From contig CAJTFO010000004.1 of assembly GCA_910575755.1 (NCBI GenBank), positions 16,494 to 80,493 on the forward strand: a stretch of DNA of 64,000 bases. Reading direction: 5' to 3'. Position 1 is the stretch's first letter, and each line of letters begins with the position of its first letter. Below the pieces are notes generated by a model. That model had not been told where the DNA came from. It worked only from the letters and a program-made list of their open reading frames with translations, and did no database searches. Position numbers and translations under genes: made by a program. This DNA comes from Desulfovibrionaceae bacterium. GTDB lineage: Bacteria > Desulfobacterota > Desulfovibrionia > Desulfovibrionales > Desulfovibrionaceae. Shown here piece by piece: positions 6,210 through 49,974 of this stretch.

Positions 6210-6522
6210 AAAAACTTCCTTCAGATGAAACATGCCGCCAACAGTGCAAAGAAGCTCGCGCCGAAACAGCTCAGGCTTGAAACTTCAGCACCTGGCATGG
6301 GTTTTGGCTCGCTCTCGGCATTTTTCACGCCGCGCCGGGCGCGCAGCCGGCAAGAAAAGCCGGAACAGAGCGAATAAAAACGGCCTCAACAGTATTTTGC
6401 CGCTGAAAATGCGTTGAACATGGTTTCAAAACGCACAGCGCATCAAAAATAATCAGCTTTGAGCAGGGTGCCGCGCCACAGGGGCACTTGTCAAGGCGCG
6501 GACGGCGCCACAAGGAGAATAC
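6210..6522. other. Divergent intergenic region between the zinc-ribbon gene and parB
   Basis: This 313-bp stretch must hold promoters for both flanking genes. I see a short hairpin (CCGGC, 7 bases, GCCGG near 6349-6365) and an AT-rich patch near 6440-6460. I see no convincing gene and no second parS-like site. Confidence 0.4.
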
Positions 6523-7452
6523 ATGAGCAACGCAAACAAGGGCCTGGGACGAGGCCTTGACGCGCTCTTCGGCGGGTCTGAACCGCAACGCGAAATCAAT
6601 GCGCACAGCAGTATGCTGCCGCTGACGGCCCTGCGGCCCAACCCTGACCAGCCCCGCAGGAGTTTTGACCCTGAAAGCCTGAAGGAACTGGCCGACTCCA
6701 TCAAAGCTCAGGGCATCATTCAGCCGCTGCTGGTGCGCCCCCAGAGCGACGGCACAAGCTATCAGATTGTGGCCGGCGAACGCCGCTGGCGCGCGGCGCG
6801 TCTGGCCGGGCTGACCCAGGTGCCGGTTTTCGTGCGTGAACTGAGCGACAAGGAAGTCATGGCCGCCGCCCTGATCGAAAACCTGCAACGCGAGGACCTC
6901 AACCCCATCGAAGAGGCCCTGGCCCTGCAAGGCCTGCGCGACACGCTGGAACTGACGCAGGAGGAGCTGGCCGCGCGTCTGGGCAAAAGCCGTCCGGCCA
7001 TTGCCAATGCGCTGCGTCTGTTGCAGTTGAGCCAGGCGGCGCGCGACGACCTGAGCGCCGGAAACATCAGCCCAGGGCACGCCCGCTGTCTGCTGGGCGT
7101 GACGGATGCGGACGCCGCCGAGAGCCTGCGCCAGCGCATCATCAGCCATGCCCTGACCGTGCGCGAAGCCGAAGAAGCCGCAAGCTTCTGGCGGAAAAAT
7201 CATATGCTGCCCTGGCAGGCGGAAAAGAACTCAGCGGACGAAGCCCAGGGAGAAAAGGAAGCGCGCCCCCGCGCGGGGCGCAAGAAAAGTCCGCAAATTC
7301 GCAGCTTGCAGGAAAACCTCAGCCAGACTCTGGCCTGTAAAACCCTGGTCAGCGGCAACGAGCAGAATGGAAAGATTACATTAACCTACGCCAGCACCGC
7401 CGAATTGCAAAAGCTGCTGGCGCGTCTGGGCGTGAGCCTGCCCGAAGCCTGA
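6523..7452 (+). CDS. parB: Chromosome-partitioning protein ParB (Spo0J)
   Basis: ParB binds parS, spreads along the DNA as a CTP-dependent clamp and activates ParA. The 309-residue protein begins with a conserved ParA-activating peptide (KGLGRGLDALFG). It has the CTP-binding motif GERRWRAA near residues 85-92 and the motif ENLQREDLNP. A helix-turn-helix (about 150-190) and a C-terminal dimerisation domain of about 45 residues follow. AAGGAG precedes the ATG. Unusually, parA and parB are not adjacent: about 730 bp and an opposite-strand gene lie between them, so parB probably has its own promoter. Confidence 0.95.
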   Translation: MSNANKGLGRGLDALFGGSEPQREINAHSSMLPLTALRPNPDQPRRSFDPESLKELADSIKAQGIIQPLLVRPQSDGTSYQIVAGERRWRAARLAGLTQVPVFVRELSDKEVMAAALIENLQREDLNPIEEALALQGLRDTLELTQEELAARLGKSRPAIANALRLLQLSQAARDDLSAGNISPGHARCLLGVTDADAAESLRQRIISHALTVREAEEAASFWRKNHMLPWQAEKNSADEAQGEKEARPRAGRKKSPQIRSLQENLSQTLACKTLVSGNEQNGKITLTYASTAELQKLLARLGVSLPEA

Positions 7453-7464
7453 ACCGGGCGTCAC

Positions 7465-8886
7465 TCAGACCCGGCGCAACACCGCCCCGTACATGCCTTC
7501 CAGCCAGGGATGCGCATGCGGGGTCTGCCACTGACGCAGCAGGGTCAGTTCAGGCCGTGCCCGCAACAGGCGGGCCACGGCCTGTTCATTTTCCGCAGGG
7601 TTCAGGGTGCAGGTGATGTAGGCCAGTTCCCGCCCCGGCTGCAACAGGCCGCCGAGGCTGTTCAGCAGGCCACGCTGCAAGTGCGCAAGCTGCGCCAGAT
7701 CCGCCGGAGCACTCCCGAAGCGTTTGCGGATGTCCGGTCGCCTGGCCAGCACGCCCAGACCGCTGCACGGCGCGTCCAGAAGAATATGACCGTTCCAGCC
7801 GGACAGGGGCGGCCTTGCCGCGTCTGTCAGACAAACAGCCGGAACCGGCAGGCGCAACTGACGGCACATATTCGGAAGATGGCGCAAACGGGACCAGGAA
7901 CGATCCGTGCTCAGGGCCACATCCGCTCCCCGCTCCAGCAGAACCGCGCTCTTGCCGCCAAAGCCGGCGCAGGCGTCCCAGATTTTACCCTGCCAACGGC
8001 TCAGGCCCAGCTCTTCCAGCGCCAGTTGCGAAGCAGCGGACTGAAAGGAAAGCGCCCCACTCCGCCGCCATTGCTCCAGACTCCTGCCCAGCGCTTCGGC
8101 AGGCAGGGCCCCCGGCGCGAAAGCGACGCCCCACAGGCCCACAGCCTGCCCGCATTCCTTTTCCGCAAGGGCAAGCAGGGCCGCGCGCAGGTCTGACGCA
8201 AACGCATGGCGGGCATTGATGCGCAAGCCGGTCCAGGGCCGCAGGGAAGAGCGCCGCATCAGCAGGCGCGCATTCTCCTCGCCGTACGCCGCAAGCCAGA
8301 TGTCCGCAATGCGGCGAGGCAAACCGTAATAGCGGCACAACCCGTCCCAGGCATCGCAGGCTGCACTTCCGGCGCTTTCGCCGTAAAATTCAGGCCTGCC
8401 CACAGCCGCGCCGAAACGCTGGATGGAACGCAGGGCGCCGTTGGCCACCCGCGCCAGCGAAGGGCCAAACAGGCGTTGCGCCTGCTCCACCGCGCCGTGT
8501 ACCGCCGCATGATCAGGAACCCGCTCCTGAAACAGCAGGGCATAGACCGCAAGCTCAAGAATATGCAGCAGAAGAGAGGGCAGACGATCAGGCCGGGGCA
8601 GAACCCGGCTCAGAAGATACGCAATGCGGATTTCGGCGCGCAACACGCCGTAAACCAGTTCAGAACAGAGATGGCGTTCCTGCGGGGGCAACGCGGTCTC
8701 CCGTTCTGATGAACCAGGCCGCCTGTCGCCGTCCAGGGCGGCGGACAGGGCTTCCTGCGCGCTCAGCCCCGCGTCCGTCAGCAGGAGCGCGTGCAAAGCG
8801 GCCCTGCGTCCGTCACGCGGCAATTTTTTCAAGAGCCGCAAAGGGGCCGCGCTCCGGCCTGACACAGCACGCCTGCCCCCGCTCAC
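7465..8886 (-). CDS. rsmB: 16S rRNA (cytosine-C5) methyltransferase, RsmB/Sun family
   Basis: RsmB methylates C967 of 16S rRNA using S-adenosylmethionine. The 473-residue protein has a NusB-like RNA-binding domain (about residues 10-150). The Rossmann methyltransferase domain then carries the catalytic motifs LLDAPCSGLG (motif IV Cys) and YITCTLNPAENE (motif VI Cys). The glycine-rich SAM motif appears as IWDACAGFGGKSA. The start is a GTG at 8886-8884, overlapping the stop of the DUF116 gene (GTGA). It belongs to a translation-linked cluster def-fmt-DUF116-rsmB. A second paralogue lies at 30692-31987. Confidence 0.9.
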   Translation of the reverse strand: MSGGRRAVSGRSAAPLRLLKKLPRDGRRAALHALLLTDAGLSAQEALSAALDGDRRPGSSERETALPPQERHLCSELVYGVLRAEIRIAYLLSRVLPRPDRLPSLLLHILELAVYALLFQERVPDHAAVHGAVEQAQRLFGPSLARVANGALRSIQRFGAAVGRPEFYGESAGSAACDAWDGLCRYYGLPRRIADIWLAAYGEENARLLMRRSSLRPWTGLRINARHAFASDLRAALLALAEKECGQAVGLWGVAFAPGALPAEALGRSLEQWRRSGALSFQSAASQLALEELGLSRWQGKIWDACAGFGGKSAVLLERGADVALSTDRSWSRLRHLPNMCRQLRLPVPAVCLTDAARPPLSGWNGHILLDAPCSGLGVLARRPDIRKRFGSAPADLAQLAHLQRGLLNSLGGLLQPGRELAYITCTLNPAENEQAVARLLRARPELTLLRQWQTPHAHPWLEGMYGAVLRRV

Positions 8887-9716
8887 GCCTGCCCCCCCTG
8901 CTCCGCATCCGCAACTGTGTCTGAAAGACCAAGAAAAAGACGAATGCTCTCTTCAAGGCCCGCCAGCGGAACCAGGGTATCCAGGCAGGGACCGCAGGGC
9001 CGCTGGTTGAGCACCCCGAAAACCGGCAGAGGATAACTGTCCTGAATACCGGAAGTCAGGTCGCGTTCGCAGGCCACAGCCACAATGCAGCGCGGCCTGG
9101 TCTGAACCACAATGCGGCGGGCAATGGTTCCGCCCGTGGCGATGGCAAACTGAATACCGTAACGGTCGCGCAAGTTCAGAAGATCGCCCACCTGGCACTT
9201 TCCGCAACGTGCGCAAAGATCCGCCTTATGCCGCAAGCGGCGGGGGCAAAGACTGCTCTGCACGCAATGCGGCAAAAGCAGCAGCAGTTGGCGCGGGGCC
9301 ACAGGGCGGCGCGCCGCCAGCACCAGCTCATTATTGACCTTGATGAAAGAGCGCCGCACCTTGTCGCGCTCAATGCCCACGGCCTTGGCCAGCAATTCCA
9401 TCAGCGGAAAAAACAGGCGGATGATCACATGCCGCAGGCCGCGCATGCCGGGCAGGGGAATGCCTGTGTAGATATGAAAGACCAGGCTGAGGCAAAGCCA
9501 GGCCAGAACCGCAATGCCCAATCCTCCCACCGCCATGCTGAACAGCGGCAGCCAGCGCAGTTCACTCCCCAGGTCGGACCAGGGCAGGATCAGAAAAAAA
9601 CAGAGCGCCAGGCACAGCAGAACGCAAGAGGCCAGCATCAGGCCGATGAAAATCCGCTTGCGGCCGCCGCCGTATTGCTCTGGCGGCAGAGAATAGGGGG
9701 ATTTGCGCAAGAACAT
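8883..9716 (-). CDS. DUF116-family membrane protein with a Cys-rich cluster
   Basis: This appears to be a DUF116 protein, a family of unknown function. Two predicted membrane helices (starting IFIGLMLASC and PLFSMAVGGLGIAV) precede a cytoplasmic domain with CPRRLRHKADLCARCGKC and further cysteines (ACERD, CGPC). That arrangement suggests a metal or Fe-S site. I chose ATG 9716 (277 aa) because GAGG lies a few bases upstream and the protein then begins just before the first helix. Starts at 9806 or 9992 are possible but lack a good ribosome-binding site or overlap fmt. It overlaps rsmB by 4 bp. The recurring linkage with fmt and rsmB suggests a translation or RNA role, but this is inference. 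Confidence 0.8.
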   Translation of the reverse strand: MFLRKSPYSLPPEQYGGGRKRIFIGLMLASCVLLCLALCFFLILPWSDLGSELRWLPLFSMAVGGLGIAVLAWLCLSLVFHIYTGIPLPGMRGLRHVIIRLFFPLMELLAKAVGIERDKVRRSFIKVNNELVLAARRPVAPRQLLLLLPHCVQSSLCPRRLRHKADLCARCGKCQVGDLLNLRDRYGIQFAIATGGTIARRIVVQTRPRCIVAVACERDLTSGIQDSYPLPVFGVLNQRPCGPCLDTLVPLAGLEESIRLFLGLSDTVADAEQGGQA

Positions 9717-33788: not shown

Positions 33789-34885
33789 TGTTTCTTCTCC
33801 TTGAGAGCGCGAAGGATGGGTTCTGTCAGATCGTCCGCGCCGATGAACAGGCCGGGCATGACCCCGTGCCAGGAGACGGCGGCAGCGCCGTTGAGCGCCA
33901 GAAGCACGTCTTCCACCATCTGGCCGGTATTCTGCTCCATAACCAGAAAACGCCGCCCCGGCGCCAGAGCGCGCAGAGCCTCGGCCGGAAAGGGATACAG
34001 AGTCACGGGCCGGAACAGACCAAGCTTGCGGCCATCCGCGCGCAAACGGCGAATGGCGCTGCGCGCGATGCGGGCTATGGAGCCGAAGGCCACCACGATC
34101 AGTTCCGCGTCGTTCGTATCCGTCTGCTCAAAGGCGCATTCCGCGCGCATGGCCGCGTATTTTTCCATCAGCAGGCGGTTGCGCCCGGCCAGGGCCCCTT
34201 CGGCCAGATACACGGATTTGAGCAGGCGCGGGGCCGCGCCTTCGCCGCGCCCGCCATAGCCCTCCAGCCGCCAGTCCTTGGCCAGGGCCATGACGGCTTC
34301 TGGCCGCAGGGCGTCTTTGGGCGGCTCGCGGCGCACGGGCTCCTTGATCTGGCCCACAATGGCGTCGCCCAGCACCATGACCGGATTGGCGTATTTGAAG
34401 GCCAGGGCAAAGGCCCGGAACATGAGGTCATAGCATTCCTGCGCCGTGGCCGGGGCCAGCACCAGATTGCGGTGGTCGCCGTGGCCGCCGCCCTTGACCG
34501 CCTGAAAATAGTCGCCCTGGGAGGGGCCGATATCCCCCAGGCCGGGCCCGCCGCGCTGCATGTTGACGATGACGCCCGGCACATGGCTGCCGGCCATGTA
34601 GGAAATGGCCTCCTGCATCAGCGAAATGCCGCAGCCGGAGGACGAGGTCATGGCCGGAATGCCGCAGGCCGCCGCGCCCAGCAGCATATTGGAGGCGGCC
34701 ACTTCGCTTTCGGCCTGCACAAAAGCCCCGCCGTTTTCCGGCAGCAGAACGGAGAGGGCCTCGGGAATTTCATTCTGCGGCGTGATGGGATAGCCGAAAT
34801 AGCAGCGGCAGCCCGCGTCCACCGCGCCGAAGGCCACAGCCTCATTGCCCTTGATCAGCACGCGTTCCTTCTGTGATGCGTTCAT
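33785..34885 (-). CDS. 2-oxoacid:ferredoxin oxidoreductase, alpha subunit
   Basis: The 366-residue protein has the pyrimidine-binding domain, with the segment CYFGYPITPQNEIPEAL and AESEVAASNMLLGAAACG, and a C-terminal domain beginning AELIVVAFGSIARI. It forms the TPP site together with beta. I chose ATG 34885, which overlaps the ferredoxin stop (ATGA); an upstream frame extension to 34984 would read through the ferredoxin gene. The wording of the active-site loop fits VOR/KGOR rather than pyruvate enzymes, but a substrate call would be a guess. Confidence 0.93.
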   Translation of the reverse strand: MNASQKERVLIKGNEAVAFGAVDAGCRCYFGYPITPQNEIPEALSVLLPENGGAFVQAESEVAASNMLLGAAACGIPAMTSSSGCGISLMQEAISYMAGSHVPGVIVNMQRGGPGLGDIGPSQGDYFQAVKGGGHGDHRNLVLAPATAQECYDLMFRAFALAFKYANPVMVLGDAIVGQIKEPVRREPPKDALRPEAVMALAKDWRLEGYGGRGEGAAPRLLKSVYLAEGALAGRNRLLMEKYAAMRAECAFEQTDTNDAELIVVAFGSIARIARSAIRRLRADGRKLGLFRPVTLYPFPAEALRALAPGRRFLVMEQNTGQMVEDVLLALNGAAAVSWHGVMPGLFIGADDLTEPILRALKEKKQ

Positions 34886-37044: not shown

Positions 37045-38303
37045 GCTGCCCGACCGCATCTCTTGCCGCGCCCTTTGACCACAGCACGCGCTTTGCCGGC
37101 AAGCGCCTGCATCTGGGTGTCTGCGGTTCGGTGGCCTGCTACCGCGCCACGGATCTGCTGCGGGCCTGGCTTGCAATGGGCATCCACGTTTCGGTCACGC
37201 TTACGGAGGGGGCCCGGCGCTTTGTCGCGCCCCTGCTCTTTGAATCCCTGGGCGCACTGCCGGTCTATGGCGGCATGTTCGAGCAGGGGCAGGATATCTT
37301 CGCCCATCTGGAGCCGGGGCAGCGCGCCCAGGCCATGATTGTGGCGCCGGCCTCGGCCGACGCTCTGGCGCGTCTGGCCCACGGCGCGGCCTCGGACATG
37401 CTGGCGGCGCAGGCCCTGGCCTTTGACGGCCCCCTGGTGCTGGCCCCGGCCATGAACCCGCGCATGTGGAGCCACCCGGCCACCCAGGCCAATGTGGAGC
37501 TGCTGGAACGGCGCGGCGCGTTTTTTGTGGGGCCGGATTGCGGCGGCACGGCCTGCGGAGACCAAGGCCGGGGAAGGCTGGCCGCCCTGCCCGAAATTTT
37601 TCTGACCGCCTTGCGTGCCCTGGCCCCGCAGGACATGGCCGGGCTGAAGGTCATGGTTACGCTGGGGCCCACGCGCGAGGCCTGGGACGGGGTGCGCTTC
37701 TGGTCCAATCCTTCCAGCGGTCTGATGGGCGCGGCCCTGGCCGTCTGCGCCTGGCTGCGCGGGGCTGACGTGGCGGCCGTCTGCGGGCCGGGGGTCACGG
37801 CCTTTCTGCCGCGGGGCGTGCGCCGCTTCGACGTGACCGGCGCGCGCGAAATGTACGAGGTCGCGCAAAGCCTCTGGCCGGATATGGACATGGGCATGTT
37901 CACGGCCGCGGTGGCCGATTTTTCGCCTGACGCTCCTGAAGGCGGCTGCGGGCACAAATTCAAGAAATCCGAAGCTCCGGAAGGTTTCAGCCTGCATTTC
38001 AGCCCTAATCCGGACATTCTGCAAAGCCTGGCCGCCGCGCGCCGTCCCGGCCAGAAAGTGCTGGGTTTCGCGGCGGAAACCACTGCGGACATGGATGCCC
38101 TGCTGCCTCTGGCGCGCGCCAAGCTGGCCCGAAAAAGGGCAGACCTGCTGGCCGCCAACCGCGTCAACGCGCCGGACAGCGGCTTTGGCGCGCCCACCAA
38201 CAGCATGGCCGTGGCTGACGCGCACGGTCGCGAGGAAATCTGGCCCTCGCAAAGCAAGGCTGATGTGGCCTGGGAGCTGTGTTCATGGCTTTTGCGGATC
38301 TGA
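37041..38303 (+). CDS. coaBC: Phosphopantothenoylcysteine synthetase/decarboxylase
   Basis: CoaBC makes 4'-phosphopantetheine, a coenzyme A precursor, in two steps. The N-terminal flavin domain shows GVCGSVACYRATDLLR and LAPAMNPRMWSHPA with the active-site Asn. The C-terminal CoaB domain shows TLGPTREAWDGVRFWSNPS and the KFKK motif with the conserved Lys. The CoaB entry motif reads TLGPTREAWDGVR instead of the common TxGGTxExIDPVR, a clear variation. GTG 37041 is the start, with AGGAG upstream; it overlaps the lipoprotein gene. CoA supply fits the acetyl-CoA-based energy metabolism encoded nearby. Confidence 0.93.
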   Translation: MSCPTASLAAPFDHSTRFAGKRLHLGVCGSVACYRATDLLRAWLAMGIHVSVTLTEGARRFVAPLLFESLGALPVYGGMFEQGQDIFAHLEPGQRAQAMIVAPASADALARLAHGAASDMLAAQALAFDGPLVLAPAMNPRMWSHPATQANVELLERRGAFFVGPDCGGTACGDQGRGRLAALPEIFLTALRALAPQDMAGLKVMVTLGPTREAWDGVRFWSNPSSGLMGAALAVCAWLRGADVAAVCGPGVTAFLPRGVRRFDVTGAREMYEVAQSLWPDMDMGMFTAAVADFSPDAPEGGCGHKFKKSEAPEGFSLHFSPNPDILQSLAAARRPGQKVLGFAAETTADMDALLPLARAKLARKRADLLAANRVNAPDSGFGAPTNSMAVADAHGREEIWPSQSKADVAWELCSWLLRI

Positions 38304-40543: not shown

Positions 40544-40634
40544 CCCGCCGCCAGCCGGCGAGGGTATGAAGAGCGCGGCCTGCGCGGCAACGCCCGCCCT
40601 GAGGGCAAATAAGCTCTATAATATGCAGCATATG

Positions 40635-40674
40635 AAAAAAGCGGGGAATGCCCTTGGGCATTCCCCGCTTTTTT
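40635..40674 (+). terminator. Strong intrinsic terminator before the glycan locus
   Basis: AAAAAAGCGGGGAATGCCC and GGGCATTCCCCGCTTTTTT (with TTTT following) form a long near-perfect stem around a 3-base loop. It cuts the glycan region off from transcription coming from the left. Confidence 0.85.
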
Positions 40675-40710
40675 ATGCTTCGCATCAGCCCGTATCCGCA
40701 GGCTCGTTGA

Positions 40711-40883
40711 CACAATGACTGTCAGTGAAGTGAATTTGATCAATACCTGACAAACCCTTTTTTAGCAAGCTTTACCCTGAAATAAAAATCCCTTGCCTGC
40801 CGTCAAGGCAAATCTGCTATAAATTCATCTTAGTTATAAATAGCCTCCTCCCTTTTTGCTCCCGTTCACTGACAGTCATTGTG
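40711..40883. repeat. 173-bp segment bounded by perfect 19-bp inverted repeats
   Basis: CACAATGACTGTCAGTGAA at 40711-40729 recurs as its exact reverse complement at 40865-40883. The enclosed 135 bp is AT-rich and contains no gene. It lies between the terminator at 40635-40674 and the first glycosyltransferase start at 40973, so it holds the likely promoter of the glycan locus. Such a layout is that of invertible promoter segments, but no recombinase is in the window. The rest of 40544-40972 holds no other gene that I can support. Confidence 0.75.
40779..40823. promoter_or_regulatory. Promoter-like elements inside the inverted-repeat segment, facing both ways
   Basis: Rightward: TTGCCT (40793-40798) and TATAAA (40818-40823), spacer 19 bp, pointing to the glycan genes. 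Leftward: TTGACG (40806-40801) and TATTTC (40784-40779), spacer 16 bp. The leftward pair would face the glycan genes if the segment were inverted. Neither is a perfect promoter, so the current ON/OFF state is unclear. Confidence 0.35.
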
Positions 40884-40972: not shown

Positions 40973-41995
40973 ATGGGAGAGCGGAACGCGGGCATGCCTC
41001 GCGCCGGGCACGGGCCGGATGCAACGGCACAGCCGCGTATCGGCGTTGTCATCCTCAACTATAACGGCTGGCAGGACACCATTGTCTGCGCGGAATCCGT
41101 GCTGGCCGGCGCCGAGCCTCCCTCCTGGCTGGTTGTGGTGGACAACGCCTCGCCCGATGACAGTGTGCGCTGGCTGCGCCATTGGGCCGCCGGGCGCATG
41201 GATTTTGCCCTGCCGGAACTGGGCGCGCCCAGGCCATGCCCCAAACCCCTGCCCCTGCTGGAGCTGGATGAGGATGCGGCCCGCCACGCCGCGCCCGCGC
41301 CGCTGACATTGCTGCGCCGCCACAGCAATGCGGGCTACGCGGCGGGCAACAATGCGGGCATGCGACTGCTTATGACCTGGGGCGCGGATGCCGTATGGAT
41401 TCTCAACAATGACACCATAGTGGACGCCAACTGCCTGGGGGCCATGCGCCGGCGGCTTTTTGCCAAGCAGCGCCCCGGCCTGTGCGGTTCGCTGGTCTGC
41501 TATCAGGGCAGCGGCCTTGTGCAATGCCGCGCGGGCGGACACACCAACAGATGGACCGGCCTCTCTGTACTGGACGGAGGCAGGGAAAGTGTGGCTCAGG
41601 CCAGACGCGCGGACGCGGCCCAGGTGGAGAACCGCCTCAATTTCATCTACGGGGCCAGCGTCATGGTCAGCCGCGACTTTATTGAGCAGGTGGGCCTCAT
41701 GGACGAGCGCTATTTCCTTTACTGCGAAGAACAGGACTGGGCTTACAGCGCCAGGGGCCGCTTTGACTTCGCCTACGCGCCGGACGCCATCGTCTGGCAC
41801 AAGGAAGGGGCCAGCACGGGCTTTTCCCACGCCGGCTTCAACGCGCGCCGCCTGCTTACGCTGATCCGAAGCCGCCTGCGGCTCACGGCCAAGCATCTGC
41901 CCCTGGCCCTGCCCTCGGTCTGCCTGAGCATGGTCTTTGCCGCCGCGCGCATGGCCTGCCGACGGCTGGGACGCGGGCTCTGGAGCGCGTCATGA
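40973..41995 (+). CDS. Family 2 glycosyltransferase
   Basis: The 340-residue protein shows the GT2 start RIGVVILNYNGWQDTIVC. The acidic WILNNDTIVD (DxD-like metal/sugar-nucleotide site) follows, and the acceptor-side segment ERYFLYCEEQDWAYSARGR fits rhamnosyltransferase-like GT2 enzymes. A basic helical C-terminus may touch the membrane. I chose ATG 40973 because GAGGAG lies 7 bases upstream. Its stop overlaps the start of the methyltransferase gene (ATGA). It is the first gene of the glycan locus and transfers an unknown sugar. Confidence 0.88.
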   Translation: MGERNAGMPRAGHGPDATAQPRIGVVILNYNGWQDTIVCAESVLAGAEPPSWLVVVDNASPDDSVRWLRHWAAGRMDFALPELGAPRPCPKPLPLLELDEDAARHAAPAPLTLLRRHSNAGYAAGNNAGMRLLMTWGADAVWILNNDTIVDANCLGAMRRRLFAKQRPGLCGSLVCYQGSGLVQCRAGGHTNRWTGLSVLDGGRESVAQARRADAAQVENRLNFIYGASVMVSRDFIEQVGLMDERYFLYCEEQDWAYSARGRFDFAYAPDAIVWHKEGASTGFSHAGFNARRLLTLIRSRLRLTAKHLPLALPSVCLSMVFAAARMACRRLGRGLWSAS

Positions 41996-42611
41996 TAAAA
42001 CTGCCGTATTTTCTGAAAAACCGCCTCCGCTACCGCGCCTTGCAGTTCGTCCGCAGACGTTTTCCCCGCATGATGCACGGCATTCCCAAGCGGGCGCTCG
42101 CATTGACCCGGATTTTACACGCTCAGGGCATAGAGCCTGAGCGCGCGGCCGAAATCGGCGTCTGGCGCGGACATTCCTCAATTGTTTTTTGCCGCTTATG
42201 GGCATCCCTAAAAGAATATCACTGTATTGACAGTTGGGCTAACTACGCGGACTACAGCGATTCAGGCGACGCCATCGCCGAAAATGATTTTAACGTTGAT
42301 AAAGCCATATTTCTGGACAGAATATCTCCATTTAACCATATAGTATCTATTCATGAAGGATTTTCATCTGATATAAGCAGTAAATTTTCTGATAAATATT
42401 TTGATTTCATTTTTATAGACGCAAATCACGCCTATGAATATGTCAAAAAAGACATTGCGTCCTGGCTCCCCAAAGTTCGGGGGGGGGGGTACTGGCAGGC
42501 CATGACTTTGACGCACCGCCCTATCCAGGAGTTCGCAAAGCCGTGGAAGAGATGATTCCATATCCAGTCTATCTTGCGGAAGATCATGTCTGGTGGACTG
42601 TTGTTCCATAA
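41992..42611 (+). CDS. SAM-dependent methyltransferase, out of frame at a poly-G tract
   Basis: As read, the frame runs from ATG 41992 to a stop at 42555 and ends in unlike sequence after the G run. In the +1 frame after the run, the conserved end of a Methyltransf_24-type enzyme appears: LAGHDFDAPPYPGVRKAVEE to WWTVVP, stop at 42611. The SAM motif AAEIGVWRGHSS and IFIDANHAYEYVKKDI lie before the run. Eleven G at 42479-42489 put it out of frame; nine or twelve G would restore about 205-206 residues. It should methylate a sugar or glycan when in frame. It overlaps the GT2 gene before it by 4 bp. Confidence 0.85.
42479..42489 (+). repeat. Poly-G(11) tract inside the methyltransferase gene
   Basis: Eleven consecutive G follow GTTC in the conserved GG-V-L-A-G-H-D region of the methyltransferase. 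The in-frame lengths are 9 or 12, so this copy is out of frame by one base. Such tracts slip during replication. Confidence 0.95.
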
Positions 42612-42630: not shown

Positions 42631-43596
42631 ATGCAACCCATGAATAAGGCATGGTGCGTACAGATTGACGTGACCAATTACTGTGTGCGCTCATGCCTGT
42701 ATTGCTCCAGATACAATCGCCACTTGCGTCCTGATCAACGCGCGCACATGCCGGTGGAGACATTCAGCGCCGCCTTGCGCAGCCTGCGCCACTGGCCGGG
42801 CAAGATTGGCGTCATCGGCGGCGAACCGCTGCTGCATCCAGAGTTCAAAACCCTCAACGCCTTGCTGCGGCGGCACTTCCCCCCTCATCACAGCCTGCGC
42901 GCAAGACTCGTGGCCCTGCTGAAAAGGAGGCCGCTGCCTGCCAATAAAAAGCTGGGGCTCTGGACTTCCGGCCTGCCCGGCACCCCTCTTGCCGACCCAC
43001 GGCATGACCCGGATATTGCCGCAACATATGGTTTCATTGCCTATAATCCTCATGATGCGGAACAGATGAAAAAGTGCCGGCATCAGCCACTGACTGTGGC
43101 CATCAGAGAAGCCGTGCCGGATGAGGCCCTCATGTGGCAGCTCATTGATAATTGCTGGGTGCAGCGCACCTGGTGCCCCAGCATAACCCACAAGGGAGCC
43201 TATTTCTGCGAGGTGGCCGCCGCGCAGGATATTTTGCTGAACGATGGGGCCAATGCCTGGCCCATTGAACCGGGGTGGTGGAGCGCCCCCCCCAACTCAA
43301 GGGAATTTCTCGCGCAGAAAGAGGCCCTCTGCCCCAATTGCGGCATGGCCATCCCCATGGAACGCGAACTGCTGCTCAAGCAGAGCGAAAAGATAAGCCC
43401 TCAACTTCTGGAAGCATTCCGCGCCCGAAAACTGAAGAGAATACATGAACAGGATGTTGAAATCTTCAGCGGAACATTCAGCAAGGAAGAGCTGCAACAG
43501 AATATTCTGAGCTGGTATCCCGGCAATTACCGCGAAGATGTGAAGCCGGACGAACAGGCCCGCGAAGGGCGCGGCTTTCCCGGCGAGCTGCGCTGA
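42631..43596 (+). CDS. Radical SAM protein of the glycan locus
   Basis: The 321-residue protein carries the radical SAM cluster motif CVRSCLYC (CxxxCxxC, residues 18-25) after WCVQIDVTNY. IGVIGGEPLLHPEF forms the SAM-binding GGEP segment. A C-terminal half with GAYFCEVAAAQD and CPNCGMA suggests an extra Cys-bound site, like a reduced SPASM domain. The reaction is unknown; in a glycan cluster it may modify a sugar or a linked group. An eight-C run (43286-43293) lies in frame at the codons for APP. It starts 19 bp after the ON-frame methyltransferase stop. Confidence 0.85.
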   Translation: MQPMNKAWCVQIDVTNYCVRSCLYCSRYNRHLRPDQRAHMPVETFSAALRSLRHWPGKIGVIGGEPLLHPEFKTLNALLRRHFPPHHSLRARLVALLKRRPLPANKKLGLWTSGLPGTPLADPRHDPDIAATYGFIAYNPHDAEQMKKCRHQPLTVAIREAVPDEALMWQLIDNCWVQRTWCPSITHKGAYFCEVAAAQDILLNDGANAWPIEPGWWSAPPNSREFLAQKEALCPNCGMAIPMERELLLKQSEKISPQLLEAFRARKLKRIHEQDVEIFSGTFSKEELQQNILSWYPGNYREDVKPDEQAREGRGFPGELR

Positions 43597-43606
43597 AGGG
43601 GGAATC

Positions 43607-44431
43607 ATGTCCATTGAAGTGCTGACCATGTGGTATAATGAAGCGCAACTGGCCCCCTACTTTCTGAAGCATTATGCCTATGCCGACAGAATCACCCTGC
43701 TGTATGACGCCGACACCAGCGACAATACGCTGGAGATCGTCAGATCCGCCCCCAATGTCTCTGTGATTCCCTTTCATTTTCCCGACATGATGGACGATGA
43801 GCTGAAGCGGGATTTTCTGAACGCACAGTACAGGCAGAGCCAATGCGACTGGGTTTTGTGCGTCGATGCCGATGAATTTGTGTTTTATAAAGAAGCAGAA
43901 ACATTTGTGTATGACCTGCATGATTTTTTGGCGGAAAGATCAAAATATGACGTTTTTTATGTGACACTCTACCAGATCTACCGCCATGCCGATGACATGG
44001 ATCTGAACCCCCGGGAATATCCTGTACCGCAACGCAGGCATGGCGATCCCAATGTCACACATGGCATGAACGCCCTCTATAACAAGCCCGCTCTTGTGCG
44101 GACCGGGCTGAATATACAGTGGACTCCGGGTTGCCACGCGGTCAAGCTGTATTCCCCTCCCCTGCGGACATTGGGCCTGAGAAGAGCCGTCCGAATGTTT
44201 TTTCATGAACATACCCTCCCCTCGCTGAAAATAGCGCCATTCCCCTTGCTCGGCGCGCACTGGTCAATGGCTGACCCCTCATTTGCCGTTGAACGCCGCG
44301 TCAAGAACAGAAGGGAGCGTCAAAGCAAAAACAATCTGACCAAGGGAATGACACGACAGCATCATACTATAACAGAAGAAAGCATTATGTCCGAATTTAA
44401 CCAACATATGCACGATGTTTTGTTATTTTAG
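43607..44431 (+). CDS. Glycosyltransferase (GT2-related, PF13704-like)
   Basis: The 274-residue protein begins SIEVLTMWYNEAQLAPYFLKHY, the start of Glyco_tranf_2_4-type enzymes, and has the DxD site in CVDADEFVFY. The later segment LYNKPALVRTGL and the His-rich RMFFHEHTLP fit the family pattern. It would transfer a sugar to the glycan or to a lipid/protein carrier. GGGGG precedes the ATG at 43607. GC content falls towards its 3' end, where the AT-rich part of the locus begins. Confidence 0.8.
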   Translation: MSIEVLTMWYNEAQLAPYFLKHYAYADRITLLYDADTSDNTLEIVRSAPNVSVIPFHFPDMMDDELKRDFLNAQYRQSQCDWVLCVDADEFVFYKEAETFVYDLHDFLAERSKYDVFYVTLYQIYRHADDMDLNPREYPVPQRRHGDPNVTHGMNALYNKPALVRTGLNIQWTPGCHAVKLYSPPLRTLGLRRAVRMFFHEHTLPSLKIAPFPLLGAHWSMADPSFAVERRVKNRRERQSKNNLTKGMTRQHHTITEESIMSEFNQHMHDVLLF

Positions 44432-44468: not shown

Positions 44469-45398
44469 ATGTTTGAAAATTTAAACTACTCTCACAGTCG
44501 CATTGCATTGCTTGCAAAGCTGAATAATGCGACAAACTATCTTGAGATAGGAGTACAGTCAGGATTCACTTTTTTATCTGTCGATCTGCCATTGAAAGTG
44601 GCTGTTGATCCTTATTTAAAATTCAATCCTCTTGATCGCAAAAAAGATGGGGAATATTTTTTTCAAATGTCTTCAAATGATTTTTTCGGGGGTCTAGCTG
44701 GCAACTCTCCAGTTGTACAGGAACTTTATGCAAAAAATAAACTTGCATTTGACATTATTTTCATTGATGGGCTGCATACATATAAACAATCATACAAAGA
44801 TTTTATAAACTCACTTGCTTATTCACATGAAAAAACATTATTTATAATAGATGATACAATACCATGCGATATATACAGCGCTATAAATAATCAAGAAAAA
44901 TCTCTTTCTGAAAGACGTCGCGCGTGCATGTATGGCACTCCCTGGCATGGAGATGTCTATAAAACAATATTTACAATACATGATTATCATCCAGATATTT
45001 CATATTGTACCATCCTTAATGCCGGAAACCCACAAACGATCTTGTGGAAGACAAAAAAAGAACGCTCCCAAAAAAAATTTAAGTCAATAGACGATATAAA
45101 TAATATGTCATTTTATGACATGATAAGCAATGCCAGATTATTAATGCCGACAAGTATAGAAGAGCTGCCAAAACATATATTCAATTATCTTGATCCTGAT
45201 CAAGATGCAAACATAGCAATATTTGAAAAATCAATCTGGATCAATTCACTGCCATATATCAATAATACGATTTATAATATAAATAAATCCTGTGAAGTAT
45301 GCATTCAAGCAATCATGAACTCATGTAGTTGGAAAATTACCAAACCACTGCGATTTTTGCGGCACGCTCTCACAAAGATATCATCAAAAACATTATAG
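44469..45398 (+). CDS. SAM-dependent methyltransferase-like protein (AT-rich)
   Basis: The 309-residue protein has a Methyltransf_24-type core: NYLEIGVQSGFTFLSVD (SAM motif I), FDIIFIDGLHTYKQSYKDF and FIIDDTIPCD. The C-terminal 100 residues contain SWKITKPLRFLRHAL, a tail frequently seen in glycosyltransferase-locus proteins. It is strongly AT-rich compared with the chromosome, as expected for transferred glycan genes. A role in methylating the glycan is inferred from position and fold. Confidence 0.75.
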   Translation: MFENLNYSHSRIALLAKLNNATNYLEIGVQSGFTFLSVDLPLKVAVDPYLKFNPLDRKKDGEYFFQMSSNDFFGGLAGNSPVVQELYAKNKLAFDIIFIDGLHTYKQSYKDFINSLAYSHEKTLFIIDDTIPCDIYSAINNQEKSLSERRRACMYGTPWHGDVYKTIFTIHDYHPDISYCTILNAGNPQTILWKTKKERSQKKFKSIDDINNMSFYDMISNARLLMPTSIEELPKHIFNYLDPDQDANIAIFEKSIWINSLPYINNTIYNINKSCEVCIQAIMNSCSWKITKPLRFLRHALTKISSKTL

Positions 45399-45415: not shown

Positions 45416-47263
45416 ATGCTGTCATATATTCGCAAATGTATACAATTTTTGATTCAATTTATACGCAAATATTTACCAGGACTTTTTTATCTATTGAAAA
45501 ATAACGACTTTGTGTCTTCTCTGCATCAGACACTTTTTCCGTTAACCACAACAACTATACACTACGATGAAGAGCACCTGCGCCTGAAAGAATATCTGCA
45601 TACGCCCAAAGACGGGCGCATTGTCTTTTATACAGCCATTGCGGGCGAGTATTCCCGCCTGCTGCCGCCCGCGCGGCTCATGCCAGGGGCGCGCTATGTC
45701 TGCTTTTCGGATTCACCAAAGCCCACATATGGCATCTGGGCCATTCGCCCCCTGCCCAAGACTTTTGCGGAGTCTCCCCGCTGGGCCAGCCGCTGGTGCA
45801 AGCTGCATCCGCACGAGCTGTTCCCGGATGCGGAAGTGGTCATATGGCTGGACGGCAACATAGTCATCAACGGCGACATGGAAGCGTACATCCAGCGCGT
45901 TATAAGCAGCGGCCTGCCGGTCGGCATGATCCGCCACCCTGAGCGGCGTTGCGTCTATGAAGAGATTGCCGCCTGCCTGCGGCTGGGCAAGGACAGTGAA
46001 GAACGCCTTGAGCGCCAGCGTCAACGCTATGTCAGTCTTGGCCTGCCCGCCGCTAACGGCCTGTATGAAACCAATGTTATCATCAATAACATCAAACACC
46101 CCGGTCTGTCAGAACTGTATGACGCCTGGTGGCGGGAACTTTCGGAACAAAGTTGGAGAGATCAGATAAGCCTTTCCTATGTATTACATGCACTACGTCT
46201 CACGCCCTGCGAGTTCTTACCAGAGGGAATCTCCGCAAAAAATAGTGAATTCTTCATTTTTTTAAAGCATGAGGCCACATTCAGGGCACATATAGACGAC
46301 CAGTCCCTGTTCTCCACAGAAGTGACTTTTCCCTCTCCTCCGGTCTCTTTTGCCGAATATGGCCGACAACACCCGCACAGCCTGGAGGCGGCAGCGCCTC
46401 ACAGGGCGGATGTCATCGTACCCGTACATAATGCGCTGGGCCATGCGCGGGCGTGCTTTGCCTCCCTGCTGCCCACACTGCGGGCAAAAGACGGACTCAT
46501 CATTGTCAATGACCTGTCAGATGCCGAAACCAGCGGCTGGCTGCGGGCCTTTGCGCAGTCTGACGCGCGGGTCAGGCTGCTCGAAAATGAAACGAATCTT
46601 GGCTATACCGGCAGCGCCAACCGGGGCTTGCGGGCCTCGGACGCCCCGTTCAGAGTCATGCTGAACAGCGATACCGTTGTTTGCCCCGGCTGGCTGGAAA
46701 AAATGCTTCTGGTGGCCTATGGCGACGACAAAACCGGCATTGTCGGCCCGCTGTCCAACGCGGCTTCGTACCAGTCTGTTCCTTCTCTGAGCCCCGCCGA
46801 GAACAATACACCCATCAATGTCCTGCCGCGTGGCAAAAGCGTCAGAGATATGGACAGGCTCTGCGAAGAGTCCGCGCCGTGGGGGCTGTATCCCTCGGTA
46901 GCCCTGATTCATGGCTTTTGTTTCGGCATACGTCAGGAAGTCATCAACACCATAGGATTTTTTGATGAAATCAACTTCGGCCGCTTTTTCGGAGAAGAAA
47001 ACGACTACTCGCTGAGGGCGGCGCAAGCCGGGTTTATCCTGCGCGTGGCGACCCCTGTATATATTTATCACGCAAAATCAAAAAGCATCAGCACAGAGAT
47101 ACGAACGTCTCATGTTGGCAAGGCAAGCCGTAGATTACATAAAATTTATGGTACAAAACGAGTTAATAATGCAATATATAAAACACTCAATACCCCAATT
47201 CTCATTTATATGCGAAATATATTCTCTAAATTTTATAATCAGTGTGATAAAAATGAAAAATAA
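45416..47263 (+). CDS. Two-domain glycosyltransferase: DUF616 + GT2
   Basis: The 615-residue protein joins two catalytic-type domains. The N-terminal half (about 65-300) matches DUF616 (TOD1/MUCI70-like), with VFYTAIAGEYSRLLPP, SRWCKLHPHELFPD and VVIWLDGNIVI. The C-terminal half (from about 335) is GT2, with ADVIVPVHNALGHARACF, FRVMLNSDTVVCPGWLEKM (DxD-like) and FFGEENDYSLRAAQAGF. One chain could add two linkages in order. The N-terminal 60 residues are AT-coded and basic-hydrophobic, possibly membrane-touching. Its 3' end overlaps the start of the next methyltransferase. Confidence 0.85.
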   Translation: MLSYIRKCIQFLIQFIRKYLPGLFYLLKNNDFVSSLHQTLFPLTTTTIHYDEEHLRLKEYLHTPKDGRIVFYTAIAGEYSRLLPPARLMPGARYVCFSDSPKPTYGIWAIRPLPKTFAESPRWASRWCKLHPHELFPDAEVVIWLDGNIVINGDMEAYIQRVISSGLPVGMIRHPERRCVYEEIAACLRLGKDSEERLERQRQRYVSLGLPAANGLYETNVIINNIKHPGLSELYDAWWRELSEQSWRDQISLSYVLHALRLTPCEFLPEGISAKNSEFFIFLKHEATFRAHIDDQSLFSTEVTFPSPPVSFAEYGRQHPHSLEAAAPHRADVIVPVHNALGHARACFASLLPTLRAKDGLIIVNDLSDAETSGWLRAFAQSDARVRLLENETNLGYTGSANRGLRASDAPFRVMLNSDTVVCPGWLEKMLLVAYGDDKTGIVGPLSNAASYQSVPSLSPAENNTPINVLPRGKSVRDMDRLCEESAPWGLYPSVALIHGFCFGIRQEVINTIGFFDEINFGRFFGEENDYSLRAAQAGFILRVATPVYIYHAKSKSISTEIRTSHVGKASRRLHKIYGTKRVNNAIYKTLNTPILIYMRNIFSKFYNQCDKNEK

Positions 47264-47990
47264 AATGTTAATATACTCTATCGTGCGTTCCACATATGTA
47301 AAATCTTTTATTAAATCAGTGCTCTTTCACAGAGGCAAGGCTCCCTCTTCCCTGCGGACTGATTATCATGCTCTGTTCATCCCGCCCAAAACAGTTTCGG
47401 ATGCCTCTCGACTACGGGAAACACTCAGAAAACATCACATAGGTTTTTTCGATTTCGGCTGCTCACGGGGTGGGGCAACATCAATGTTTTCACGTTATAC
47501 GGGCTTAACCGGCTTGGGTTTTGATCGCGACATGCATAAAATCAAACTTGCCCTCAAAAACGGATGCCATTGCAGTAACGCCGATATCCTCAGCATACCG
47601 GATGAGCCTTTTGTCCCATTTGTGATTATGTTTGATTTTCTGGAACATCTTGATTCACGAACGGCGGTTTATACTTTCATTGATAAAGCCTGCAAGGTAA
47701 GCAATGGCAATGTTTTTATCAGCCAGCCCTTTCATGACGCTGATCAACTGTTGTTCGCGGATGGCTTCAAAACGTACTACTCCCACTGGAATTGTCATAA
47801 AAACTCCACGACGACTACAGACTTTTTTCACCATTTATGGGAGTTAAGAGCGCATTCTGTCATATCCGACTTTCTCATTGGGTATAAGAATCCTATTCTC
47901 TCATCTGGTCATACATCTATTCACCCTTTACAATCCCCTATAGATTGTCACCAGTACGACATTGCAAAACATCCGCCAAAGGACCTATAA
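47253..47990 (+). CDS. Class I SAM methyltransferase of the glycan locus
   Basis: The 245-residue protein has the SAM motif FFDFGCSRGGATSMFSRY and the later FVIMFDFLEHL (motif II-like), then FISQPFHDADQLLF. I chose ATG 47253, which overlaps the upstream stop (47263) by 11 bp; an ATG at 47265 is possible. No good ribosome-binding site is seen, so translation may be coupled. The gene is AT-rich. It may methylate a sugar or cap the glycan. About 160 AT-rich bases without a gene separate it from the ABC transporter. Confidence 0.8.
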   Translation: MKNKMLIYSIVRSTYVKSFIKSVLFHRGKAPSSLRTDYHALFIPPKTVSDASRLRETLRKHHIGFFDFGCSRGGATSMFSRYTGLTGLGFDRDMHKIKLALKNGCHCSNADILSIPDEPFVPFVIMFDFLEHLDSRTAVYTFIDKACKVSNGNVFISQPFHDADQLLFADGFKTYYSHWNCHKNSTTTTDFFHHLWELRAHSVISDFLIGYKNPILSSGHTSIHPLQSPIDCHQYDIAKHPPKDL

Positions 47991-48150: not shown

Positions 48151-49974
48151 ATGCCATCAAAAAATTTTGAACAGTTCTTTGCTGATTTTTTTCAGATATA
48201 CCATGTGCTGCCGCCCCCATTGCGTCGCGCCGCGGTACAAAACTTCCTTTTGTCCGTCATTCTCTCCTTCACCGAGCTGTTGAGCATATCCTTCATTTCC
48301 GTCTTGGCCATAAGCATCGCCACGCCGGAAAAAGTACTCGCCCTGAAGCCGGTGACGCTGCTTTTGAACTGTTTCCCCCAACTGAACCGCCTGACTGCGG
48401 ATACACGTTTGTTCGCCCTGGCTGTGGCCACCTGCGCGGCCGCCCTTATTGCCGCCAAAAACCTGCTCATGATGCTGGTCACGCTGAAGGTCAAGCGGCT
48501 GGAGACGGAAATTGCCCGCTTTGCCGGCGAAAGCATCTTCAGGCACTATCTTTACAGCCCCTATATGGCGCACCTGACCGGGAACAGCCAGGATGTGCTT
48601 CAGGCTCTCTCCTGGCGCGTTCAGTTTGCCGCCTTTTTTGGCGCATATCTTATGTTCTATGTAAATGGTCTTATTTCGCTGCTTCTGCTTGTCGCCCTTT
48701 TCTTTGTCACGCCGGGCATGGTGCTGCTGCTTATTGCCGCGCTCATCAGTATAGTGCTCTGTATTTACAGCTCGCTGCGGAAAAAGCTGGACAGGGCGGG
48801 CAGGAACATGGCCTCCTTCAGCCGTCGGGAACATAAATGTTTTATTGACGCCATTTTCGGCATCAGGGAAACGCTTATTTACAATCAGCAAAGCGTGTTT
48901 TTCTCCGCCTATCGTCAGATCAGCCGGGAGGCTGTGCCTGACCGCGTACTGGGCGCGGCAGCCCCGTCCATGCCTGTCTGGATGCTGGAAAGCGCGGGCT
49001 TCATGCTCGTGCCCCTTATTTTCTGTTGCATGTACTTTGTCATGGATGCTTCCATGACGCGCATCACGGCCGTGCTGACCGTGCTTATGCTGGTGCTCTG
49101 GCGGGTGCTGCCCATATGCAACAAGATGCTTGGCGCTCTGGTGACGGCGCGCACCCTGCGCCACGCCTCCCGGGGCTGTCTGGACATGGTGAAAAAAGCG
49201 ATTGAATCCCCCGTGACGCCGCCTCCCGCGCCGGCTCCCGACTTTATCTTGCGCAAGGGCATAGGCCTGAGCGACGTGGGTTTTCGCTATCCCGACGCTG
49301 AAAGAAGCTGCCTCAGCCATATAGACTGCTTCATCCCCTGCGGCTCTCGTGTGGGCGTCATAGGGCGGTCCGGGGCGGGCAAAAGCACGCTGGCGCTGTT
49401 GCTGAGCGGCCTGATGCGGCCCACTGAAGGAGCACTGCTGGCGGACGGCAGGGAACTTTCCCCCGCGGCTCTGGCGGCGTACCGCCTGCGCGTGGGCTAT
49501 GTGCCGCAAAGCCCGTATCTCATGCCGGGAAGCCTGGCCGAAAACGTGGCTTTCAGCCAATGGGGCAAAGCGTGGGATGAGGCAAAAGTGCGGCGCGCCT
49601 GCCGCATGGCGCAACTGGATGTGGCGGAAAGCCGCGGCCTGAACCTCGCCATCGGAGAACACGGTGCCGGCCTTTCGGGCGGGCAGATGCAACGCCTTGC
49701 CATAGCAAGGGCGTTGTACGTCAATCCTTCCGTGCTTATTCTGGATGAAGCCACCAGCGCTCTGGACAGCGGCGTGGAAAGGGCCGTCATGGATACCATA
49801 TTTTCGCTGCCGCAGAGCATCACCACCATTATCATCGCCCACAGACTTTCCACGGTTGAGCGCTGCGACACCCTGTTCTGGCTTGAAAACGGCCGCCTTG
49901 CGGCGTCCGGCCCGCCGGCTGCACTACTGCCGGACTACAGGGCGCATATGGCAGAGAGAGTATTAACTAAATAA
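48151..49974 (+). CDS. ABC exporter (MsbA/PglK-type), permease-ATPase fusion
   Basis: The 607-residue protein has an N-terminal six-helix membrane domain (about 20-330) and an ATPase domain. The ATPase shows Walker A GRSGAGKSTLALLLSG, signature LSGGQMQRLAIARAL and Walker B VLILDEATSALD. It should work as a homodimer that flips a lipid-linked glycan or lipid across the inner membrane. It is the last gene of the glycan locus. No other flippase (Wzx) or polymerase (Wzy) was seen, so it is the best candidate for export. Confidence 0.88.
   Translation: MPSKNFEQFFADFFQIYHVLPPPLRRAAVQNFLLSVILSFTELLSISFISVLAISIATPEKVLALKPVTLLLNCFPQLNRLTADTRLFALAVATCAAALIAAKNLLMMLVTLKVKRLETEIARFAGESIFRHYLYSPYMAHLTGNSQDVLQALSWRVQFAAFFGAYLMFYVNGLISLLLLVALFFVTPGMVLLLIAALISIVLCIYSSLRKKLDRAGRNMASFSRREHKCFIDAIFGIRETLIYNQQSVFFSAYRQISREAVPDRVLGAAAPSMPVWMLESAGFMLVPLIFCCMYFVMDASMTRITAVLTVLMLVLWRVLPICNKMLGALVTARTLRHASRGCLDMVKKAIESPVTPPPAPAPDFILRKGIGLSDVGFRYPDAERSCLSHIDCFIPCGSRVGVIGRSGAGKSTLALLLSGLMRPTEGALLADGRELSPAALAAYRLRVGYVPQSPYLMPGSLAENVAFSQWGKAWDEAKVRRACRMAQLDVAESRGLNLAIGEHGAGLSGGQMQRLAIARALYVNPSVLILDEATSALDSGVERAVMDTIFSLPQSITTIIIAHRLSTVERCDTLFWLENGRLAASGPPAALLPDYRAHMAERVLTK

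Follow-up and report, generated by a model that had tools for sequence, protein, structure and literature searches.

Surface-sugar phase variation is described in the searched literature for Campylobacter, Helicobacter, Neisseria and Bacteroides; resistance to phages and recognition by the immune system are governed by it. The poly-G/C tracts of Campylobacter range from 7 to 15 bases, with 7 as the cut-off; lengths of 9 and 10 are the commonest, and 11 and 12 are less so (PMC6321876). Among the genes that carry such tracts are those for SAM methyltransferases and for a radical SAM enzyme (PMC6321876). The gene cj1426c encodes a phase-variable capsular 6-O-methyltransferase of Campylobacter (PMC8355987). 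A sugar O-methyltransferase of mycobacteria, MeT1, has also been described as an enzyme (PMC9883506). No description of phase variation in Desulfovibrio or in sulfate-reducing gut bacteria was found in the same literature.

The locus presented here lies in a window of 64,000 nucleotides of a Desulfovibrionaceae bacterium (contig CAJTFO010000004.1, positions 16,494 to 80,493), which was analysed as a whole. We consider it fairly probable that the gene at 41992-42611 is a poly-G contingency gene of the Campylobacter kind, and the whole operon is perhaps also controlled by inversion. The features are collected in Table 1. The G run contains exactly 11 letters in the window, and the assembled reading frame continues behind it with 21 junk codons and a stop. 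The frames were built for each run length from 9 to 13 G. Nine G give a protein of 205 residues and twelve G one of 206, ending VLAGHD...WWTVVP, while 10 or 13 G give 170 or 171 residues and the product of 11 G is also truncated. A change of one unit in the run toggles between the full-length and the truncated product. The initial annotation had described the gene as open up to 11 G and nonsense thereafter, with 205-206 residues restored by 9 or 12 G, and its coordinates and counts are right. What it called the +1 frame requires one base more (or two fewer), and the GHD and the WW end are recovered in the 9-G and 12-G forms. There is no second lesion in the 123 bases 3' of the run. The ATG of the gene and the stop codon of the glycosyltransferase gene before it overlap (ATGA), which suggests coupling of the two.

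Table 1. Features of the G-run gene, its upstream region and the surrounding glycan cluster (window coordinates).
Feature	Position	Strand	Remarks
Perfect 19-bp hairpin, A/T runs on both sides	40635-40674		Putative strong bidirectional terminator insulating the segment
Left arm, perfect 19-nt inverted repeat	40711-40729	+	CACAATGACTGTCAGTGAA
AT-rich 135-nt segment between the arms	40730-40864	+	39% GC; candidate invertible promoter
Promoter-like site TTGCCT-19-TATAAA, extended -10 TG	40793-40823	+	Faces the operon (GT2 start 40973)
Right arm, perfect 19-nt inverted repeat	40865-40883	-	Pairs with 40711-40729
Glycosyltransferase family 2 (GT2) gene	40973-41995	+	First gene downstream of the inverted repeat
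Methyltransf_24 gene as assembled	41992-42555	+	187 aa, final 21 codons out of frame
G(11) run	42479-42489	+	At the conserved x-G-G loop preceding the V-L-A-G-H-D strand
Displaced 3' end of the Methyltransf_24 gene	42489-42611	+	VLAGHDFDAPPYPGVRKAVEEMIPYPVYLAEDHVWWTVVP, stop; 62.5% identity to the intact G105 relative
Radical SAM-like gene	42631-43596	+	Profile match below the Pfam cut-off
Glycosyltransferase (Glyco_tranf_2_4)	43607-44431	+	Profile match
Second Methyltransf_24 gene	44469-45398	+	Intact, 33% GC
Two-domain glycosyltransferase (TOD1/MUCI70 + GT2)	45416-47263	+	Profile match
Methyltransferase-like gene (Methyltransf_23)	47112-47990	+	Profile match below the cut-off
ABC exporter (MsbA/PglK-like)	48151-49974	+	In G105, the exporter relative adjoins the methyltransferase relative

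The protein up to the G run matches Methyltransf_24 (PF13578) with 61.7 bits, the curated cut-off being 26.3 bits. When the displaced end is included, the score rises to 67.6 bits and the match extends to the end of the profile. This profile match above the cut-off bears out the family that had been named from the letters. Among solved structures, PDB entry 6g7d comes closest in sequence, and we take it to be the mycobacterial sugar 1-O-methyltransferase MeT1; the match, over the D-x-N/G-H ... G-G ... H-D core, is weak (E = 0.089, not significant by itself). The product is probably a SAM-dependent O-methyltransferase that methylates a surface-glycan sugar made by the surrounding cluster. A sugar substrate is suggested because the neighbours are glycosyltransferases, radical SAM-like and methyltransferase-like genes, and an ABC exporter. 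The cluster around the G-run gene comprises two GT2-type glycosyltransferases, one two-domain glycosyltransferase and two further methyltransferase-like genes. Successive genes differ sharply in GC content (67, 59/42, 58, 49, 33, 52, 40, 58%), an unevenness as in exchanged glycan clusters.

It is important to compare the displaced 3' end with intact relatives of the gene. At 1e-10 there was no relative among 78 congeners, and seven distant or moderate ones were found in 287 members of the family. The closest of those found, in the family genome G105, is about 50% identical, unbroken and without a G run; the tract itself is not conserved. The relative reads K-V-R-L-G-G-V-L-A-G-H-D where the window has K-V-R followed by the run, its codons at this site being CGG CTT GGA GGT, and no gap is needed to align it with the 12-G form. 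The identity is 25/40 (62.5%) after the run and 74/163 (45%) before it. Both alternative frames of the displaced end score negative against the G105 relative, and the differences after the run fall as 12/8/22 on codon positions 1/2/3, so that third positions dominate. The spacing x-G-G ... G-H-D is kept in 16 further, more distant relatives. The displaced frame was selected, as the 62.5% identity, the negative alternative frames and the third-position differences indicate, so the displaced end was under selection until recently. Loss of selection after the run, which the initial annotation had named as evidence against a switch, was examined against G105 only; the end is conserved there and no stop interrupts it. 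An old pseudogene is ruled out by this conservation, which is compatible alike with a switch, a very recent loss or a miscounted run.

In the proposed mechanism, slipped-strand mispairing at the G run would add or remove single bases. Twelve G (also nine) would yield the full enzyme of 206 or 205 residues. With 11 G, as assembled, or with 10 or 13, the protein would stop short of its last strands, lack the G-H-D motif and presumably be inactive. One clone would then be a mixture of methylated and unmethylated cells. The comparison covered one genome of the species, and no same-species or close counterpart was found in plasmids, in viral contigs, among genomes taken one per species or in the genus. 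A point against the mechanism is that poly-G glycan genes do not form a genome-wide set, G/C runs of at least 10 being present in four places. The contingency switch that had been suggested for this gene is supported in part: the run lies in mid-gene and is off by one base, the 3' coding is conserved, and the enzyme class and the setting match the contingency genes of Campylobacter (PMC6321876, PMC8355987); slippage in this organism is what the mechanism would add.

In addition, flipping of the 135-nt promoter segment that the 19-nt repeats enclose might switch the whole operon on and off. Inverted repeats upstream had been noticed at the outset, and they are indeed a perfect pair. Simulated windows contain about 0.3 repeats of even 14 nt at comparable spacing, and the 19-nt repeat is far beyond chance. 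The "second layer" of control that had been attached to these repeats stands in so far as the inverted repeat is real and perfect and is arranged as in an invertible promoter; the promoter part of it is consensus-like only, having a 19-nt spacer and being absent from a stricter promoter scan. We give about even chances to the element at 40711-40883 as a candidate invertible promoter. Another perfect 19-nt inverted repeat in the window, GC-rich and about 3 kb apart (34447-34465 / 37434-37452), lies inside two unrelated coding regions and is probably due to chance or codon bias.

The main alternative for the upstream repeats, to which we give slightly less than an even chance, is that the two arms serve as operators, or mark where a small mobile element ends, and do not form an inverton. 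Window positions 40630-40735 recur once in the genome, at G000:C4:171603-171708, as a 106-nt block (terminator and left arm) that is 81% identical. This second copy follows a CheV-like gene, ends right at the arm and has no right arm. A block that terminates in the left arm and recurs without the partner arm fits operators or mobile ends, and so does the partly palindromic structure of each arm (ACTG-T-CAGT). The same reading is favoured by the lack of a recombinase nearby: none was found on the same 232-kb contig, and the 24 tyrosine and 2 serine recombinase matches are all on other contigs. However, the arms have neither a flanking target duplication nor further copies. The repeat occurs nowhere else in the genome, and a search with the arm in 287-288 family genomes gave only single hits with one mismatch, at about chance level. 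For the same reasons, no target duplication and no other copies, the reading of the 173-bp element as a MITE is disfavoured. The 19-nt arms, the total of 173 bp and the promoter-like site towards the glycan operon match the invertible promoters of gut bacteria.

Other inversion systems were found by scanning the recombinase neighbourhoods of the genome. In the first (L105, G000:C2:333000-350000), a perfect 16-nt inverted repeat at 8232-8247 / 8395-8410 encloses 147 AT-rich nucleotides, 208 nt upstream of a flagellin gene (6402-8024, minus strand, PF00669/PF00700). It adjoins a tyrosine recombinase (8514-9578, minus strand), which is followed by phage genes, and the locus is a candidate flagellin inverton. 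The second (L104, G000:C6:45000-64000) has perfect 23-nt inverted repeat pairs at 6657-6679/6795-6817 and 7412-7434/7550-7572 in genes of a Mu-like prophage that presumably encode tail fibres, beside a tyrosine recombinase (8346-9230, plus strand), and appears to be a tail-fibre inversion cassette. The arms of this second system share CTGTCAG with the window repeat, a weak resemblance. The two systems make DNA inversion in this organism credible, without direct bearing on the window repeat. That a Desulfovibrio-type gut bacterium combines an invertible operon promoter with a poly-G methyltransferase switch, as two stochastic switches that act in series and independently, can be suggested tentatively and with more doubt than confidence. 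If this were true, cells would be glycan-off, glycan-on and unmethylated, or glycan-on and methylated.

The G run has also to be judged against the background of its genome and genus. A one-step Markov model expects 0.04 G runs of at least 11 in the window; the G/C runs of 4-7 found there fall about two- to six-fold below the numbers that the same model predicts. In the whole 2.8-Mb genome, G or C runs of at least 10 occur in four places, and the model predicts more. These are the G11 run, an intergenic sequence that is present twice, and a run at the 3' end of an unassigned gene; only the G11 run breaks a gene in its middle. It is unusual for the genome, yet possible by chance genome-wide. 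The two intergenic copies are near-identical (L001 and L004 around 1501; G000:C1:163236, 234876), each a C10-C11 run followed by A8 in a C-rich stretch, and this repeated element looks unstable. The remaining run, a C10 (L003 1501-1510; G000:C1:193627-193636), overlaps the 3' end of the unassigned gene and lies immediately beyond the stop codon of a convergent CobH/CbiC-like gene, and other lengths would alter the C-terminus of the overlapped gene.

Among the congeners, the number of G/C runs of at least 10 varies from none to about 40 per genome. Among the runs examined, one per genome, those in frame lie in genes that include ones for a glycosyltransferase, a radical SAM/SPASM protein, ribosomal protein L4, a CheA-like kinase and a glycogen debranching enzyme. 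The run in the ribosomal protein L4 gene (L096 1055-1813, minus strand) has a length of 10. A genus-wide link of poly-G runs with glycan genes is not supported, with one run per genome and hosts that include L4 and the CheA-like kinase. In this genus poly-G runs do not single out contingency genes, and incidental occurrence is seen in core genes. Because congeners carry such runs in housekeeping genes, the argument depends on where the run lies, on the frame and on conservation, and not on the run alone.

This background is relevant to a recent fixed loss of function, in which a single slippage at the G run inactivated the gene and switching is not maintained. Such runs arise incidentally in the genus, as just described, the gene is accessory, as its few relatives show, and the 3' end would stay intact after a recent event. 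However, the gene that contains the run is an exchangeable one for surface glycan, and contingency tracts usually sit in such genes. In addition, slippage can by its nature reverse a change in a run of 11 G, and lasting fixation requires a second lesion, which the bases that follow do not contain. We regard a fixed loss as unlikely.

A little less probable again is a run miscounted in the assembly, with 12 (or 9) G in reality and a gene that is never off. Several platforms misread homopolymers as long as this one and PCR blurs them, the assembly is a draft of 61 contigs, and the G105 relative fits the 12-G length. However, no reading frame is broken by the window's two other G/C runs of 8-9, which indicates that indel errors are not common. 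Expression despite 11 G, with polymerase or ribosome slippage supplying a constant minor amount of full-length enzyme and no on/off switch, is very improbable: slippage on long homopolymers is generally known to be possible in transcription and translation, but transcriptional slippage on G runs is less documented than on A/T runs.

If the gene is indeed a poly-G contingency gene, its slippage switch, with an invertible promoter perhaps as a further layer, would mean that sulfate-reducing gut bacteria diversify their surfaces too, and it could account for differences between otherwise clonal isolates. The present locus differs from those of Campylobacter in belonging to a distant lineage, with a genome of 60% GC as against about 30%, and in being a single such locus, while Campylobacter has tens per genome; its run length comes from one genome. 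With the Campylobacter poly-G methyltransferases (cj1426c; C. fetus core phasome) it nevertheless shares an in-frame G run of a length within 7-15, a SAM methyltransferase, a surface-glycan setting and a one-base toggle between full-length and truncated products. The candidate invertible promoter upstream differs from the invertible capsule promoters of Bacteroides fragilis and from gut invertons in that it occurs in one copy only, has arms of unrelated sequence and comes from another phylum. However, the short perfect inverted repeats and the short AT-rich, promoter-like segment before a glycan operon are common to both.
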